A stretch of 42,962 nt of DNA from IMG/VR virus record IMGVR_UViG_3300020717_000188, positions 1 to 42,962 of that record; one strand, 5' to 3'. The DNA is from a virus. This document shows, piece by piece, positions 686-13,348 of the stretch (within the stretch, counting starts at the first letter, position 1; every line of letters begins with the position of its first letter). The notes beneath the pieces were generated by a model. The model was not told the DNA's origin and did not search any database. It saw only the letters and a program-made list of their open reading frames with translations. The translations under genes and the position numbers were made by a program.

Positions 686-925
686 CCTACGGCGGGGCTG
701 ATACCAAGAACGTTTTAAGATTTTTCGCCCAAACTAATATCGGTAATCGACCGAGGTGTTTATCTTGAAGTGACCAGTTGATCTATTCTTCTCTGTGCAA
801 TAGGGTAGATGATTGGAGTGAGGGAATAATTGGCCCTTAAGTTGTAGGTAGATGTCGGGCGTACATCTCGAGATTCTAAGAGGCCTGCAGGAATGTCGAT
901 TTGGTGAAGAAGCAGCATAGTCATT
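686..925 (+). ncRNA. candidate structured RNA
   Basis: About 240 bases with no credible ORF. Local hairpins: CCCC/GGGG at 684-696, CGGT/ACCG near 741-755, and AGATGT/ACATCT near 850-870. A possible closing helix pairs GCTG (697-700) with CAGC (913-916) and ACCAA (703-707) with TTGGT (901-905). It lies just upstream of a sigma70 promoter, so it would be transcribed from upstream. No known RNA family recognised. Confidence 0.35.
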
Positions 926-930
926 CTAAT

Positions 931-959
931 TTGACACGGGATAAATAGTTAGCTATAAT
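931..959 (+). promoter_or_regulatory. composite sigma70 promoter with embedded late box
   Basis: TTGACA at 931-936, 17-base spacer, TATAAT at 954-959: a perfect sigma70 promoter, ten bases before tRNA-Val. The late octamer GATAAATA (940-947) sits inside the spacer, so the same tRNA could be read by both early and late transcription machinery. Confidence 0.75.
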
Positions 960-968
960 AGTGTAAAT

Positions 969-1044
969 GCATCGTTAGCTCAGTTGGTAGAGCGTCTGCC
1001 CTACACGCAGAATGTCGCCTGTTCGAATCGGGCACGATGTACCA
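969..1044 (+). tRNA. tRNA-Val (anticodon UAC)
   Basis: Acceptor GCATCGT pairs with ACGATGT (one G-U), discriminator A, CCA encoded. Anticodon stem TCTGC/GCAGA with loop CCTACAC gives UAC (Val, GUA). Position 33 is C instead of the near-universal U. Confidence 0.9.
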
Positions 1045-1061
1045 GTTAAGAAGGGGATTAT

Positions 1062-1346
1062 ATGAAAAGTATTCTTATTGTAAGTATTTTAGCAGCAACT
1101 CTTTCGGGTTGTGCGGTCGGCCGACACGGACAATTATATGTCCCACCAGTTGTTGTAGGTGCAGCAATTGGCGCAGCAGCGGTATTGGTATATGAACAGA
1201 ATGTGACATATCCGTATCGTGAACAAGAATATTTCTATGATCGGGGATACGGAGGTTATTTCTTCTTTGATAATAGAAGTCAACGACATTATATGCCACG
1301 TGGTTGGGGATATCATACTCATGGTGTCCCTGGTTATAGGCACTAA
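1062..1346 (+). CDS. predicted lipoprotein, 94 aa
   Basis: Small exported lipoprotein. Residues 1-16 form a signal peptide (Lys2, then a hydrophobic run ILIVSILAATLSG) ending in the lipobox LSGC with Cys17 as the lipidation site. A second hydrophobic, Ala/Gly-rich segment (about residues 29-46) may be a membrane-associated glycine-zipper-like helix. The C-terminal half is Tyr/Gly/His rich (YFYDRGYGGYFFF). The start is set by AAGGGGAT 7 bases upstream of the ATG. Phage lipoproteins of this kind often act in superinfection exclusion or lysis, but nothing here proves either. It follows tRNA-Val and is probably read from the 931 promoter. Confidence 0.8.
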   Translation: MKSILIVSILAATLSGCAVGRHGQLYVPPVVVGAAIGAAAVLVYEQNVTYPYREQEYFYDRGYGGYFFFDNRSQRHYMPRGWGYHTHGVPGYRH

Positions 1347-1378
1347 TATCATAATAAACGGGTATTGCGCCCGCTTTG

Positions 1379-1386
1379 TATAAATA
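1379..1386 (+). promoter_or_regulatory. late promoter box TATAAATA
   Basis: Exact T4 late octamer, four bases before the ATG of the homing endonuclease at 1391; transcription would begin at or next to the start codon. Confidence 0.65.
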
Positions 1387-6962: not shown

Positions 6963-7733
6963 TTACTGGCACTTTGATCTACAATTGTCGAAGTGCCACC
7001 TTAACATAGAACTACCTCTACCTTCCTTTTTACAATGGGGGCAGGTATGAGGTTTCTGTTGTTTACCTTTATGTATCTTACTAAGTTTTTCTCGTGTCTC
7101 TTGGGATGTAATTTTTCCGATATTAGCAAGTGAAAGATTTTTCTTATGCTCAGCTGATTTAGGTTTTCCTTTCGACGATTGGCTCATTTTTTCTTTGGTT
7201 TCTTCCGAGAATGATTTTCCGGCATTTGGACCCAGTCTACCGATAAGTTTATTAGCTCCCGACATTACCGATGTATCGGTTTCTTTTGTTTTACCCTTAT
7301 TCCACGGATCTTTTCCGAATCTATGATTTTTCTCTCCCATCTTTTGCTCGCTGAACCTTTTCTTTGTCTCATCGCTATGAGTTTTTCCGTAGAATGAACT
7401 ATTTTCTCCCGAACAATATAAGGACATTAATTTTTTAGATATTTCGAAATATCGGGAATTGATTATTCTTTTCTGGTTAGGATTACATTGGCACATTTTA
7501 GCAAAGGCAAATACCATTTTTGCTTTATCTTTACCGGTATAGATTTTAGTCAATAATAGATGTGCGATAAAATGTTCTCTCGGAATAAGATATACAAGAT
7601 TACTTTTGTCATTTGTTCCACCTAGCGATTTAGGTAGTATATGATGTCTTTCCAGCATACCGTCATTTTTGGATTTACGATTCAGTAATATTCTGCTTGA
7701 CATCAGTCTGGTATATATGTTATTATAATTCAT
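6963..7733 (-). CDS. HNH homing endonuclease with NUMOD3 repeats
   Basis: Free-standing HNH homing endonuclease. The HNH core is near the N-terminus: LERHHILPKSLGGTNDKSNL (residues 27-46), with the paired His and the downstream Asn/His (REHFIAHLLL). The middle carries several NUMOD3-type DNA-binding repeats (SFYGKTHSDETKKR, HRFGKDPWNKGK, NAGKSFSEETKEKM, GKPKSAEHKKNLS and later copies). The C-terminus is a CxxC-H-C zinc finger (CPHCKKEGR ... HFDNC). It is antisense to its neighbours, has its own minus-strand late box at 7763-7770, and its stop abuts the stop of the upstream gene with no gap, as expected for an inserted mobile gene. Confidence 0.88.
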   Translation of the reverse strand: MNYNNIYTRLMSSRILLNRKSKNDGMLERHHILPKSLGGTNDKSNLVYLIPREHFIAHLLLTKIYTGKDKAKMVFAFAKMCQCNPNQKRIINSRYFEISKKLMSLYCSGENSSFYGKTHSDETKKRFSEQKMGEKNHRFGKDPWNKGKTKETDTSVMSGANKLIGRLGPNAGKSFSEETKEKMSQSSKGKPKSAEHKKNLSLANIGKITSQETREKLSKIHKGKQQKPHTCPHCKKEGRGSSMLRWHFDNCRSKCQ

Positions 7734-8570: not shown

Positions 8571-9626
8571 ATGACAGAACGTAAAATGGCTACAATTAGG
8601 AAAATTGCTGAAATACAAGCAATTCCTGAGGCTGACAAAATTTGTGCCTATCGAGTCGATGGTTGGTGGGTAGTCGAAGTAGTTGGAAAGTATGTAGTTG
8701 GTGATTTAGTAGTTTATGCCGAACCCGACAGTTGGATTCCTCATGAGTTAGCACCTTTCTTGTCTAAAGGTCACGAGCCAAGAACATTCAATAGTATAGC
8801 AGGTGAAAAGTTAAAGACTGTTCGTTTGCGTGGTCAATTATCTCAGGGTTTATTAATGCCACTCGAACCCACTTGTGCCAATATAGAATCTATGTTGTTT
8901 GAAGGACTTGATGTTTCTTTCCCTCTTAATATTCAGAAATGGGAAGCTGTTATTCCCTCTGAACTTGCTGGCCAGGCTGCAGGGAACTTTCCTAGATTTA
9001 TCCCAAAGACTGATCAGGAACGTTGCCAGAACTTATATGAAGATATTTTCATTAAGAATGCTGACGCATACTATGAAATTACAACAAAGTTAGATGGCAC
9101 ATCTTTCACTGCATTTTATGCAGACAAGGAAGAAGGTGTCTGTAGCCGTAATTGGGAATTAAAGTTAGACGGTGCTAATGAAAACAATAGCATGGTCCGT
9201 ATGTTTATAGATAGCGGACTACAGTCCGTATTTCGCCAATTAAACCGCAATCTAGCAATACAAGGCGAGTTATGCGGGCCAAATATACAGGCCAACAAAG
9301 AACAGCTTAAATCTGTAAAATTATTTGTATTTGATATATTTGACATTGATAATAATTGTTATCTAATACCTTCTGAGCGTCATAAACTTATGGAAGAACT
9401 TTGGTTATTCGGTGTAGATAGAGATATGGTACAACATGTCCCTGTTATTGCCTACAGTGCAAATTTATATGATACATTAGGTATTACCACAATGGATCAA
9501 TTATTAAAATTTGCCGATGGTCCATCACTTAACGCTGCGATAAGAGAAGGAGTCGTATTTAAACGAATAGATGGGAAATTTAGTTTTAAGGCAATTAATA
9601 ATCGTTGGCTTCTGAAAAACGAATAG
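8571..9626 (+). CDS. RNA ligase, DRB0094/Rnl5-like
   Basis: ATP-dependent RNA ligase that would seal 3'-OH/5'-phosphate ends through ligase-adenylate and RNA-adenylate steps. The N-terminal 100 residues form the OB-like domain typical of the Deinococcus DRB0094 family (ATIRKI, VDGWWVVEVVGKYVVGDLVVY, EPDSWIP, TVRLRGQLSQGLLMPL). The nucleotidyltransferase domain follows: motif I KLDGTS with Lys173 as AMP-accepting residue, GVCSRNWEL, AIQGELCGP (motif III/IIIa region), EGVVFKR (motif IV) and SFKAINNRWLLK (motif V). All catalytic motifs are intact. It is the last gene of the PTH2 operon. Its last 32 bases overlap the 3' end of a convergent homing endonuclease gene without loss of motif V. Confidence 0.9.
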   Translation: MTERKMATIRKIAEIQAIPEADKICAYRVDGWWVVEVVGKYVVGDLVVYAEPDSWIPHELAPFLSKGHEPRTFNSIAGEKLKTVRLRGQLSQGLLMPLEPTCANIESMLFEGLDVSFPLNIQKWEAVIPSELAGQAAGNFPRFIPKTDQERCQNLYEDIFIKNADAYYEITTKLDGTSFTAFYADKEEGVCSRNWELKLDGANENNSMVRMFIDSGLQSVFRQLNRNLAIQGELCGPNIQANKEQLKSVKLFVFDIFDIDNNCYLIPSERHKLMEELWLFGVDRDMVQHVPVIAYSANLYDTLGITTMDQLLKFADGPSLNAAIREGVVFKRIDGKFSFKAINNRWLLKNE

Positions 9627-10480: not shown

Positions 10481-11275
10481 ATGAGATTACAGGAACTTTT
10501 CGAAACGACAGAAGAAGACAGAGCATTAATTTCCCTGTCTTCCGCCATTTATGCAAAGCTACAACCTTATATCGGCACCGATATTGACTATGATGATGAA
10601 GATCAGGAATTAGTTAGTATTGGTAGAATTGGCGAACTCTTTGATACATCAATAGCAGGATTAGACCCAATCGGTATCGAAATACAGGGTGGAGAACCGT
10701 TCCTAAGAAGAGCAGATAATGTTGCATCATCTGACAAAATCAAAATATCTAAGAATATATTAGCATTCTGGGAAGACCGAACTAAGTCTATAGTATTAAA
10801 TGCTGATTACTTGGGTACAGATCGTATGCGTACTACAATTACACACGAACTGCGCCATGCATTGGATGAACTCAAATCAGATTCATTTCCGCCAAGTCCA
10901 ATGAATAAAGATCCCGAAAATATACACAAATATTTTACACCAAAGAAAAAAGAGCATCGCAGAGATGATCCTTACAGCACAGTGCAGTATCGCGCACAAC
11001 CAGCAGAAATAAACGCAAGGTTTGTGGAGATATTAGATGTATTATCAACGAGGATTATTCCTAGAGCAATTAAATCATCACCAGACCAAGTCCGACCAAA
11101 AGTTTTGAACGATCTTAAACATCTTCTTGTGAAATATGAGATAGAAGATTTATTTCCAGAAAGAACACAATCAAGAGATTATAAAAGACTTATTAAACGT
11201 GCTATAGACTTCATAGATAAAGAATTAGCACATAATGGCGTTTTTTACCCCAAATCCACACCTAAATTAGGTTGA
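10481..11275 (+). CDS. zincin-like metalloprotease with capsid-targeting-like N-terminus
   Basis: Predicted zinc metallopeptidase of 264 residues. The zinc motif HELRH lies at residues 122-126 in THELRHALDE, and a likely third ligand Glu176 lies in PAEINARFVE, the arrangement of minigluzincin-type proteases; catalytic Glu123 is present. The N-terminus MRLQELFE followed by TTEED matches other proteins in this window (MRLFELFE, MRLYELIDFE) and resembles the T4 capsid-targeting sequence cut after (I/L)xE by the prohead protease. This suggests packaging in the head and delivery into the cell. The late box directly abuts the ATG, fitting late expression. No signal peptide. The substrate is unknown; it could also act in head maturation. 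Confidence 0.8.
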   Translation: MRLQELFETTEEDRALISLSSAIYAKLQPYIGTDIDYDDEDQELVSIGRIGELFDTSIAGLDPIGIEIQGGEPFLRRADNVASSDKIKISKNILAFWEDRTKSIVLNADYLGTDRMRTTITHELRHALDELKSDSFPPSPMNKDPENIHKYFTPKKKEHRRDDPYSTVQYRAQPAEINARFVEILDVLSTRIIPRAIKSSPDQVRPKVLNDLKHLLVKYEIEDLFPERTQSRDYKRLIKRAIDFIDKELAHNGVFYPKSTPKLG

Positions 11276-11300
11276 CTGTATAACTAAAACACTATACAAT
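11272..11300 (+). promoter_or_regulatory. sigma70 promoter for the structured RNA / Ro60-like locus
   Basis: TTGACT (11272-11277), 17-base spacer, TACAAT (11295-11300). A perfect TATAAT also lies at 11309-11314 as a possible alternative -10. The -35 overlaps the stop codon of the metalloprotease gene. Confidence 0.6.
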
Positions 11301-11309
11301 ACAACTTGT

Positions 11310-11580
11310 ATAATTACAAAGAGTGAATACAGCAAACAAACCTAGCTCGAAAGAGCATCTACGGTGTTGCTTAAAATATACATAATGGAGGGGAAACCCG
11401 TTGAAGTTGTGTATTAACGCACTTAGTGGAGCTATCTCGAATGAGTAGCGTTGAAGCTAAGTGGGTGTGCAACGAACATCCTAGGACGATGTAAAAGGTT
11501 CGAACGAGGGGTAAGGCTCTCTTGCAATAGAGTACCGAAAGGTATAAACTATTGTCCCTTACATCACTCTGTTTTCAATT
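11310..11580 (+). ncRNA. large structured RNA upstream of Ro60-like gene
   Basis: About 270 non-coding bases packed with helices: GCTC-GAAA-GAGC (about 11346-11357); AATATACA with TGTGTATT enclosing a GGG/CCC hairpin (about 11377-11416); CACTTAG with CTAAGTG enclosing GCTA-CTC/GAG-TAGC (about 11421-11463); ACATC with GATGT (about 11477-11493); and GTAAGG with CCTTAC enclosing CAATAG/CTATTG and TACC-GAAA-GGTA (about 11511-11565). Several GAAA tetraloops and nested stems are hallmarks of a large ornate RNA. No ORF of substance. Could be a Ro60 ligand or a phage-type giant RNA of the ROOL/GOLLD kind; neither identity is established. Confidence 0.6.
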
Positions 11581-11589
11581 AAGTTCTGG

Positions 11590-11623
11590 TTTAGTTGACA
11601 AAGATAATTTGTTCAACTAAACT
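11590..11623. repeat. inverted repeat with embedded promoter-like elements
   Basis: GTTTAGTTGA (11590-11599) faces TCAACTAAAC (11613-11622), a perfect 10-bp stem extended by CAAA/TTTG across one bulge. It contains TTGACA (11595-11600) and, 17 bases on, TAAACT (11618-11623). It could therefore be an operator-bearing promoter or an RNA stem; no U-run follows, so a terminator is unlikely. Confidence 0.5.
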
Positions 11624-11649
11624 AGCACACTTGTAGACATTTAAAGATT

Positions 11650-11890
11650 AGTTACAGCAACAAAATAAAATATGCACAGGTAACGAAAGTTATCGAACCT
11701 TTCCGGAGGGGAAAGCAAAAACTCGCCAAAAGCTAGTCTGTTTTTATTTAATTTTAAAAGATCCATGCAGCATTTAAAATCCAACCAGCGAGACAGGGTG
11801 CGATTCCCTGCTAGTAGTGTAACAGCAGCACAGCCGGCAATAAAAGTGATCTTGATTTAAAGAATTTGAACAGCAATCACGTAAATTAAC
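11650..11890 (+). ncRNA. second structured RNA / leader with T-arm-like hairpin
   Basis: Non-coding leader directly upstream of the Ro60-like gene. Helices: GGTAAC-GAAA-GTTATC (about 11679-11694), CTTTCC/GGGAAAG (about 11699-11714), AAGATC (11758-11763) with GATCTT (11848-11853). Inside the last is a tRNA T-arm-like hairpin CAGGG-TGCGATT-CCCTG (11794-11810), followed by a D-arm-like GTGT-AACAGCA-GCAC (11817-11831). The order T-arm then D-arm mirrors the permuted tRNA-like RNA at 16.3 kb, but no acceptor-like stem separates the arms and the D-loop lacks GG. A Shine-Dalgarno (GAAGGAGA) follows at about 11896. Confidence 0.45.
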
Positions 11891-11911
11891 AATTCTGAAG
11901 GAGAAAGTAAA

Positions 11912-13348
11912 ATGACATCATTATTCGAAGCGGTAAACGCAACAGCAGTAACAGCCAATGGCGCAGTTACAAACGCATCCTCGTTGAACAAGAACGTGGA
12001 CCTATTTTTCTTAGCCGGTGCAAGCCGTGGTAAGGATATCACACCTACCTTTGTTGGTGCAATGGTAGAAGACTCCGAAGTTGCAATCCGTGTCCTTGAA
12101 TGGGCACGTGATGCACGTGGTGGTGCTGGTGAACGTGAAACTTTCCGTAAGTTGTTCGCCTATGTTCTGAAGAATGAACCAGCGTTGGCCTCTCGCCTGT
12201 TGGTGAAGGTTCCAGAACTTGGTCGTTGGGATGACTTGTTCGTTGTATTCGGATCTCCGTTAGAGCGTGAAGCTCTGCGCTTAATTGCCGCAGGATTGAA
12301 GGATGCATCGCAGTCCGGCCTATGTGCTAAGTGGATGCCGCGCCAAGGTTCGGAAGCGAACAAGATTCGCTCGTACTTGAAGCTAACTCCAAAGGAGTAT
12401 CGTAAGTTACTTGTTGGTCTGTCCAACACTGTTGAACAGAAGATGTGTGCTCGCGAGTGGGATGGTATTGTGTACCCACACATTCCGTCTGTTGCAGCTG
12501 GTCGTTACCAGAAGGCTTTCTTAAAGCACGACCCGAAGGGTTATGCTGATTATAAGGCTAAGTTGGTTACTGGTGAAGCCAAGATCAACGCAGGTGCGGT
12601 TTACCCGTATGATGTTATCCGTTCGTTAAACAATGGTGACAAGGTTGTTGCCAACGCACAGTGGGTGGCTCTGCCGAACTACTTGGAAGGTTCCGACGAA
12701 AACATCATGCCAGTTGTTGACGTATCAGGTTCCATGGGATCTGTTGCAGCCGGTAGCGTAACTGCGTTGGATGTTGCAATCTCCTTGGGATTGTATGTGT
12801 CAGAACGCATGGGTGGCGTGTTCAAGGACCAGTTCATTACCTTCTCTGGTGCACCAGAAATGTTGCACTTGAAGGGTAACCTACAACAGCGTTATGACCA
12901 GATGGCTCGTTCCAACTGGTCTATGAACACTGACTTGGGTGCAGTATTCAAGTTAATCTTGAATGCAGCAGTTAAGAGCAAGGTTGACCAGAAGGAAATG
13001 CCGACAAAGATCTTGATCTTGTCAGACATGGAGTTCGATGCTTGTGTAACAACAGGTGGTTCTGGTGTACGTCGTAGTTACAACTCGACAGGTGGATCTG
13101 CAGTGAGCGTAAGCGCAATGGAGTTCATCGAAGCAGAATATGCGGCAGCTGGTTACAAGGTTCCGCAGGTTGTGTTCTGGAACTTAAATGGTCGTGCTGG
13201 TAACAGCCCGGTTACATACAACAAGACTGGTACAGCTCTTGTGTCTGGATTCTCGCCAAGCATTGTTAAGTCAGTGTTGGGTGGTGAAGAAATGACACCG
13301 ATCAGTATCATGCTTAAGACTGTAATGGTACAGCGTTACGATTTCTAA
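11912..13348 (+). CDS. Ro60-like RNA-binding protein (DUF2828, TROVE-like repeats plus vWA)
   Basis: Protein of 478 residues built like the Ro60/Rsr ring protein: an N-terminal helical-repeat domain (about residues 25-255) and a C-terminal von Willebrand A domain (about 265-475). The repeat domain has ARDARGGAGERETFRKLF and VPELGRWDDLF, signatures of the DUF2828 family, which I regard as TROVE-related (inference). The vWA domain carries an intact MIDAS: DVSGSMGS (about 271-278), a Thr region near NTDLGAVF and the Asp of LILSDMEFD. Ro60 rings bind Y RNAs and the 3' ends of misfolded RNAs and can tether an exoribonuclease. RBS AAGGAGA. The gene follows 600 bases of structured RNA, ends at a UUCG terminator, and uses more GC-rich codons than its neighbours. 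Confidence 0.8.
   Translation: MTSLFEAVNATAVTANGAVTNASSLNKNVDLFFLAGASRGKDITPTFVGAMVEDSEVAIRVLEWARDARGGAGERETFRKLFAYVLKNEPALASRLLVKVPELGRWDDLFVVFGSPLEREALRLIAAGLKDASQSGLCAKWMPRQGSEANKIRSYLKLTPKEYRKLLVGLSNTVEQKMCAREWDGIVYPHIPSVAAGRYQKAFLKHDPKGYADYKAKLVTGEAKINAGAVYPYDVIRSLNNGDKVVANAQWVALPNYLEGSDENIMPVVDVSGSMGSVAAGSVTALDVAISLGLYVSERMGGVFKDQFITFSGAPEMLHLKGNLQQRYDQMARSNWSMNTDLGAVFKLILNAAVKSKVDQKEMPTKILILSDMEFDACVTTGGSGVRRSYNSTGGSAVSVSAMEFIEAEYAAAGYKVPQVVFWNLNGRAGNSPVTYNKTGTALVSGFSPSIVKSVLGGEEMTPISIMLKTVMVQRYDF

Follow-up and report, generated by a model that had tools for sequence, protein, structure and literature searches.

The stretch of DNA analysed here (the window) is a 42,962-base virus record of IMG/VR (IMGVR_UViG_3300020717_000188), in which the gene of a Ro60-like protein is preceded by a leader of 635 bases. 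We consider it likely that this locus is a phage Ro60/Y-RNA system with a tandem array of RNA modules and built-in autoregulation. The reading is built on the modelled fold of the protein and on the leader modules: they covary, they are linked to the gene, and a mini-module sits at the ribosome-binding site. An earlier note on this DNA gave the coordinates correctly and proposed one ornate leader RNA, possibly a giant phage RNA with a protein partner. A structured non-coding RNA beside a Ro60-like protein was borne out by structure, covariation and comparison across phages. A single giant RNA was not, since the leader is composed of several separately closed modules.

11912..13348, plus strand: Ro60-like protein of 478 amino acids (aa) (DUF2828/DUF7788, phrog_850), from profile matches, an AlphaFold2 model and structure alignment

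In a Pfam search (E 0.001), the protein matched DUF2828 and DUF7788 only, and the TROVE profile was not matched. NCBIfam has no model for it, and its phrog_850 match is annotated 'RNA-binding protein'. Of the searched phage records, 681 contain relatives. The AlphaFold2 model, built from 41 homologues (predicted local distance difference test, pLDDT, 84.1; predicted template modelling score, pTM, 0.83), shows a helical N-terminal part, predicted to form a ring, and a C-terminal vWA domain. The metal-ion-dependent adhesion site (MIDAS) motif DxSxS is present as DVSGSM, with D270, S272 and S274 invariant across the 41 homologues, as expected from the helical-repeat and vWA protein with intact MIDAS described in the earlier note. 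In a Foldseek search against the PDB, all 11 matches below E 0.001 were Ro60, Rsr or TROVE. Alignment of the model by VIA-align gave Z 22.6 with Ro60 (408 residues, 11% identity), 15.6 with the Ro60 of Thermus phage phiLo and 13.7 with Deinococcus Rsr, compared to about 10.5 for the best non-Ro chain and 10.5 or less for unrelated vWA chains. A sequence profile search reaches TROVE/Ro60 chains weakly, around the MIDAS. The modelled protein is therefore of Ro60 fold, yet lies outside the Pfam TROVE family by the profile test. The earlier note had named a structure unlike Ro60 as evidence against its proposal; the predicted fold is that of Ro60.

Comparison of the window leader with a more distant locus (L061), where two tandem sub-threshold YrlA matches lie upstream of the same gene, provided the rule for a module: a stem arm, about 3 bases, CAGCAA, an interior, usually an A-rich strand, and the other stem arm. 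The leader and the region 3' of the gene carry the following elements.

11320..11570, plus strand: module M1, 251 nucleotides (nt), closing stem AGAGTGA/TCACTCT, 5' CAGCAA, nested interior hairpins (fold, covariation)
11645..11739, plus strand: module M2 of 95 nt, closed by AGATTAG/CTAGTCT, with CAGCAA and two hairpins, lacking a tRNA-like domain (fold, orthologues)
11758..11853, plus strand: module M3, 96 nt, Y-RNA-like, T-arm-like CAGGG/CCCTG and a D-arm-like hairpin, closing stem AAGATC/GATCTT (comparison)
11861..11896, plus strand: mini-module, 36 nt (AGAATT...GAACAGCAA...AATTCT), proposed operator (counts against shuffles, covariation)
11898..11903, plus strand: Shine-Dalgarno AAGGAG, one base 3' of the mini-module (sequence)
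16278..16391, plus strand: another Y-RNA-like module of 114 nt that has an intact T-arm (CAGGGTTCGATTCCCTG), an acceptor-like stem and the closing stem AGTATAG/CTATACT (covariance model R1)

Fold-energy z-scores were obtained for the leader and for individual modules. The whole leader is more stably folded than shuffles (z -2.85). M1 and M2 alone have minimum free energy z-scores of -3.72 and -2.78, respectively, and the closing stem of each forms in free folding. In the M1 alignment (11 orthologues), 98.7% of the cells of 21 consensus pairs are paired and 10 of the 21 pairs show compensatory changes. Such changes are found in only 3/16 pairs of M2 (10 orthologues) because this module is more conserved. 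The M3-type alignment of 17 sequences has 16 pairs with 95.6% of cells paired; compensatory changes affect 12 of them and fall in the closing stem, the T-arm and the D-arm. M3 itself is no more stable than shuffles (z 0.17) and the mini-hairpin alone reaches -1.7 kcal/mol, so that both rest on comparison instead of energy. M3 scores 78.1 bits with R1, the covariance model of M3-type modules, of which its sequence is itself part. The 16278-16391 module, outside the training set, was found with 45.4 bits (E 1.1e-6; fold z -2.21) inside a tRNA cluster 3 kb downstream of the Ro60-like gene.

M3 has T and D arms without an acceptor-like stem. Its T-loop reads TGCGATT and the D-loop GG is lost, both being intact in L002; the tRNA-elbow contacts of M3 thus look lost on both sides. 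At 18827-18921 of the window, a weak module-like match (17.3 bits, E 0.51) with CCGCAA and AGAAT/GATTCT ends overlaps a tRNA-Thr gene. Several early motif matches elsewhere in the window outside the leader were treated as chance, lying within coding sequence or having no AG..CT stem ends.

The module motif is enriched in front of homologous genes. Upstream of 79 of them, TACAGCA occurs 112 times compared to 8.3 in dinucleotide shuffles; among 7-mers, only the T-loop word GGTTCGA is more enriched. Motif sites with a closing stem number 135 there, compared to 15.1 in shuffles; in gene bodies, 10 of 48 motif sites are closed. A stricter scan of all loci found 164 distinct modules in the orientation of the gene and 20 in the opposite orientation. 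Covariation scores exceed those of shuffles for mini-modules (0.729 versus 0.164), M3 (0.608 versus 0.217) and M1 (0.530 versus 0.204), and sliding the partners by 1-3 columns drops the paired cells to 24-48%. The shuffle tests may be inflated by kinship of the sequences; the slid controls retain this kinship, yet fall away. Absence of covariation in the leader, which the earlier note regarded as damaging to its proposal, was thus not what comparative folding gave.

The modules accompany the protein family in Listeria, Salmonella, Mycobacterium, Campylobacter and Bacillus phages. Three lie immediately before the Ro-like gene in P100plus; in FelixO1 and Krypton555 they are downstream of it, among tRNAs in FelixO1. 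The same module ends are found beside the family in Campylobacter NCTC12673 and Bacillus FADO, and in L016 and L017 larger modules lie 1.1-2 kb upstream with other open reading frames (ORFs) between. With R1, modules next to the protein gene were detected in FelixO1, Krypton555, S13, Ci1 and FADO, and 63/63 of its matches are on the gene's strand; those above about E 0.05, which include pairs of ordinary tRNAs, were disregarded. Since M3 and the 16278 module contain T-arm and D-arm sequences, and relatives of the modules are annotated as pseudo-tRNAs, one could regard them as tRNA-gene remnants and conserved leader structure unlinked to the Ro-like protein. We find this highly improbable: the closing stems co-vary instead of decaying, modules without tRNA parts have identical ends, and these ends recur beside the protein family in unrelated phages.

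Equivalents of the mini-module were sought in 74 distinct 130-base upstream regions, with the element ending at most 45 nt from the ATG. They precede 49 of the 74 distinct homologous genes, compared to 0.8 expected from shuffles, and end 9-35 nt before the ATG. For 38 mini-modules with joined ends, 97.4% of stem cells are paired (69% when shuffled, 24-42% when slid), a value partly built in, as the elements were chosen for having a closing stem. Both sides are changed in 77 cells compared to 22.7 in shuffles. The independent evidence for the element is the count of 49/74 against 0.8 and the variety of pair types. In the window, a strict scan revealed no other such site at any gene start, though it also misses this gene's own 6-bp element.

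Transcription and processing of the modules, their binding by the protein and the autoregulation are predicted from these features. One or two promoters in front of the gene would drive transcription of M1, M2 and M3, which would probably act in trans as RNA partners of the Ro60-like protein, as YrlA does for Rsr. The conservation pattern suggests that the Ro60-type ring would bind each module via its variable closing stem, flanked by CAGCAA and usually an A-rich strand. M3 and the 16278 module appear to mimic a circularly permuted tRNA; M1 and M2 carry other hairpin domains. The mini-module may be a stripped-down copy of the Ro-binding site beside the ribosome-binding site. Free protein in excess of Y RNA would bind the mini-module, hold the hairpin over the Shine-Dalgarno and block translation, a feedback that would keep protein and RNA in balance. 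As the hairpin is weak alone, this block would depend on the protein.

Autoregulation could also be the only role of the array. In the window, the messenger RNA (mRNA) leader itself contains three modules and the mini-module, and many loci have a mini-module adjoining the Shine-Dalgarno, so that all modules might be cis-acting operators, several leader sites never released as Y RNAs. We consider this unlikely. Modules lie downstream of the gene in FelixO1 and Krypton555, as does the 16278 module in the window, the larger modules of L016 and L017 are separated from the gene by ORFs, and several modules mimic tRNA, which a plain operator would not need.

Several observations weigh against a Ro60/Y-RNA system with autoregulation. 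The mini-hairpin is weak by itself, and 25 of the 74 upstream regions, including those of S13, Ci1, GAP32 and P100, have no mini-module by the scan. CAGCAA differs from the YrlA basal-stem sequence, M1 and M2 have no tRNA-like domain, and the T-loop and D-loop of M3 have lost the usual contact bases. Although modules of L031, L061 and L086 resemble Rfam YrlA (RF02553) at 38-39 bits, which speaks for the system, every YrlA similarity is below the gathering score of 69 and none is in the window. Finally, the RNAalifold structures came from the same alignments that were used for counting pairs.

Other features of the leader agree with the earlier description of about 600 ORF-free bases with stems and GAAA tetraloops behind a sigma70 promoter. 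No ORF of at least 60 aa was found on the plus strand of 11276-11911. GAAA loops cap GCTC/GAGC (from ~11343), ACC/GGT (from ~11537) and GTAAC/GTTAT (from ~11682). Two promoters were predicted by consensus scan.

11272..11300, plus strand: predicted promoter P1, sigma70-like TTGACT-17-TACAAT, overlapping the stop codon of the preceding gene
11595..11623, plus strand: possible second promoter P2, TTGACA-17-TAAACT, located between M1 and M2 within an inverted repeat

The position of P1 is conserved in eight homologous loci, mostly as TTGAC / TATAAT, and a sequence like P2 is also present in L004 and L005. Sigma70-like promoters with a spacer inverted repeat of varying sequence were noted upstream of the gene in the window (11595-11623), L009, L015, L016, FelixO1, S13, Ci1 and KVP40; in KVP40, the spacer repeat resembles a tRNA T-arm.

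The leader is about 600 nt long and lies in a phage near a tRNA cluster, which is the setting of ROOL and GOLLD, large structured RNAs found among phage tRNA genes. Listeria phage P100plus even has a ROOL match some 1 kb before its Ro-like gene (L082 2393-2944, 86 bits, gathering score 99.1). One giant ornate RNA of this type with a protein partner nevertheless appears extremely improbable: no ROOL/GOLLD match was obtained in the window at E 10 with permissive filters, and separately closed modules occur singly or in other numbers elsewhere. The Rfam comparison proposed in the earlier note (Y RNA, ROOL, GOLLD, OLE) was carried out on 11150-12050 with these settings. It gave six low-scoring chance matches, mostly microRNA-type, and nothing credible, and assignment to ROOL, GOLLD, OLE or another Rfam family was rejected. 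The same tool recovers the ROOL of L082. A group I intron or homing element in the leader was also rejected: the leader is intergenic, without an Rfam intron match, and in L006 a homing-endonuclease-like ORF (809-1381, minus strand) is inserted between M1 and M2, not within them. Since blastn of the leader against 50,697 phage records gave zero matches, leader homologues were taken from IMG/VR. In loci among L002-L018 they precede the same gene, and additional sequence is often present around leader position 300-363.

For Listeria phage CKA15, PMC12282133 describes the homologous protein as detectable in purified virions. Less than 2 kb upstream of its gene lie three non-coding loci with high transcription, suggested by the authors to be Y RNAs. 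We mapped CKA15 via P100plus (97% identical). Transcripts CKA15_059 and 060, the most abundant, and the adjacent 061 (L095 442-752) fall inside the ROOL-matching region, so these abundant transcripts are probably ROOL rather than Y RNA. Transcripts of the CKA15_059-061 region amount to up to ~67% of phage transcripts. The ROOL match about 1 kb before the Ro-like gene is a feature of Pecentumvirus phages; the Y-like modules are nearer to the gene, so the CKA15 RNA-seq does not yet demonstrate module expression.

Outside the window, T4-like relatives carry tRNA-Y chimeras.

L085 4896-5141, L090 4892-5128, L092 1382-1631 and L093 237-724: tRNA-Y chimera loci, CAGCA or CTGCA beside a Ro-type stem (annotated tRNAs/pseudo-tRNAs)

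These genes of 116-124 nt in S13, Ci1, KVP40 and Vibrio phage 1.081 are annotated, where annotations are present, as tRNA-Ser, tRNA-Asn, tRNA-OTHER or pseudo-tRNA. They keep the normal tRNA order of 7-bp acceptor stem, D-arm and T-arm, most with a CCA-like end; in one unit whose sequence was read directly, the acceptor stem pairs 7/7. In place of the anticodon arm they have a hairpin, for example GCAAACT-GACA-AGTTTGT, with ATTCAGCA after it; the stem GCAAGCT/AGCTTGT of Vibrio phage 1.081 represents a compensatory change. Superposition with tRNA shows bacterial Y RNA to be circularly permuted (PMC11472068). The chimeras appear to carry the same Ro recognition stem as the modules, grafted onto a tRNA, and would be non-permuted Y RNAs. 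If true, they put the Ro-binding stem exactly at the site of the tRNA anticodon arm, a clue to the origin of Y RNA.

The window carries rIIA/rIIB, tail sheath and tail tube genes and 15 predicted tRNA genes, and is probably a fragment of a large contractile-tailed phage. The Ro60-like locus sits in a tRNA-rich region, where a NUMOD3/HNH homing endonuclease gene is also present (6963-7733, minus strand). Two further features flank the locus.

8571..9626, plus strand: RNA ligase (RNA_ligase and PHA02142 OB fold; close to DraRnl TIGR02306), from domain matches
13361..13385, plus strand: hairpin AGAAAGGGGC-TTCG-GCCCCTTTCTT, possible terminator, 3' of the Ro60-like gene (sequence)

The terminator scan lists the minus-strand version of this hairpin. 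Immediately 5' of the array, 10481-11275 is a putative metallopeptidase-like gene (weak DUF6782 match) with homologues upstream of the Ro-like gene in 18 loci. The RNA ligase gene is two genes upstream of the Ro60-like gene, and an RNA ligase is also inside the DNA stretch taken around the Ro-like gene in 15 loci, making it a possible functional neighbour. The adjacent ligase and tRNAs suggest a role in RNA repair or surveillance, the least certain step of our proposal: the system may handle structured or damaged RNA during infection, possibly together with this ligase and the tRNAs.

Bacterial Ro60/Rsr-YrlA of Salmonella and Deinococcus (RYPER) likewise combines a Ro60 fold with intact MIDAS residues, an RNA with basal stem and tRNA-like domain beside the protein gene, and an RNA-repair enzyme nearby (PMC8394870); the tRNA-like part of YrlA tethers PNPase to Rsr (PMC8394870). 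The phage RNAs share the basal stem, as covarying closing stems, and the adjacency to a Ro60 gene. A tRNA-like domain made up of T-arm, acceptor-like stem and D-arm is seen in the 16278 module and in relatives, whereas M3 has no acceptor-like stem and M1 and M2 have no such domain. In contrast to the bacterial systems, the phage protein matches DUF2828/DUF7788 and not TROVE in Pfam, the RNAs have a CAGCAA basal-stem motif and three kinds of tandem modules, and a mini-module adjoins the ribosome-binding site of the protein gene itself. Ro60 proteins and Y RNAs of phages as such were known before. Thermus phage phiLo encodes a Ro60-type protein (PDB 9l5y), ROT/TROVE proteins and RNA ligases have already been pointed out in jumbo phages (PMC7824862), and PMC12282133 treats CKA15_055, a Ro60-type protein of the same family with Y RNAs proposed nearby, and cites mycobacteriophage Y RNAs (Chen 2014). 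The module definition, array and autoregulatory element found here are absent from the accessible portions of these reports; unlike ROOL/GOLLD, the window leader is modular, with no sequence or structure match to them. We regard as provisionally new the rule that defines the CAGCAA modules, their arrays, the module of 251 nt, the mini-module resembling an operator and the non-permuted chimeras, none being reported in the searchable literature, outside which key reviews and the 2014 Y-RNA paper lie.

More broadly, large phages may carry a self-regulating Ro/Y-RNA system that uses one stem in three ways: in Y RNAs acting in trans, including the 251-nt kind, in an operator on the mRNA of the protein, and in a tRNA graft that replaces the anticodon arm in T4-like relatives (with acceptor stem and usually a CCA end). 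We see the arguments for this generalization as evenly balanced by the doubts. The function of Ro60 and Y RNA in bacteria is still debated, and a compact phage version with many covarying sites defines the apparent recognition target of this Ro branch. The mini-module model predicts an autoregulation that can be tested with reporters, and the search rule (stem + CAGCAA, stem + A-rich) may be applied to Y RNAs missed by Rfam.

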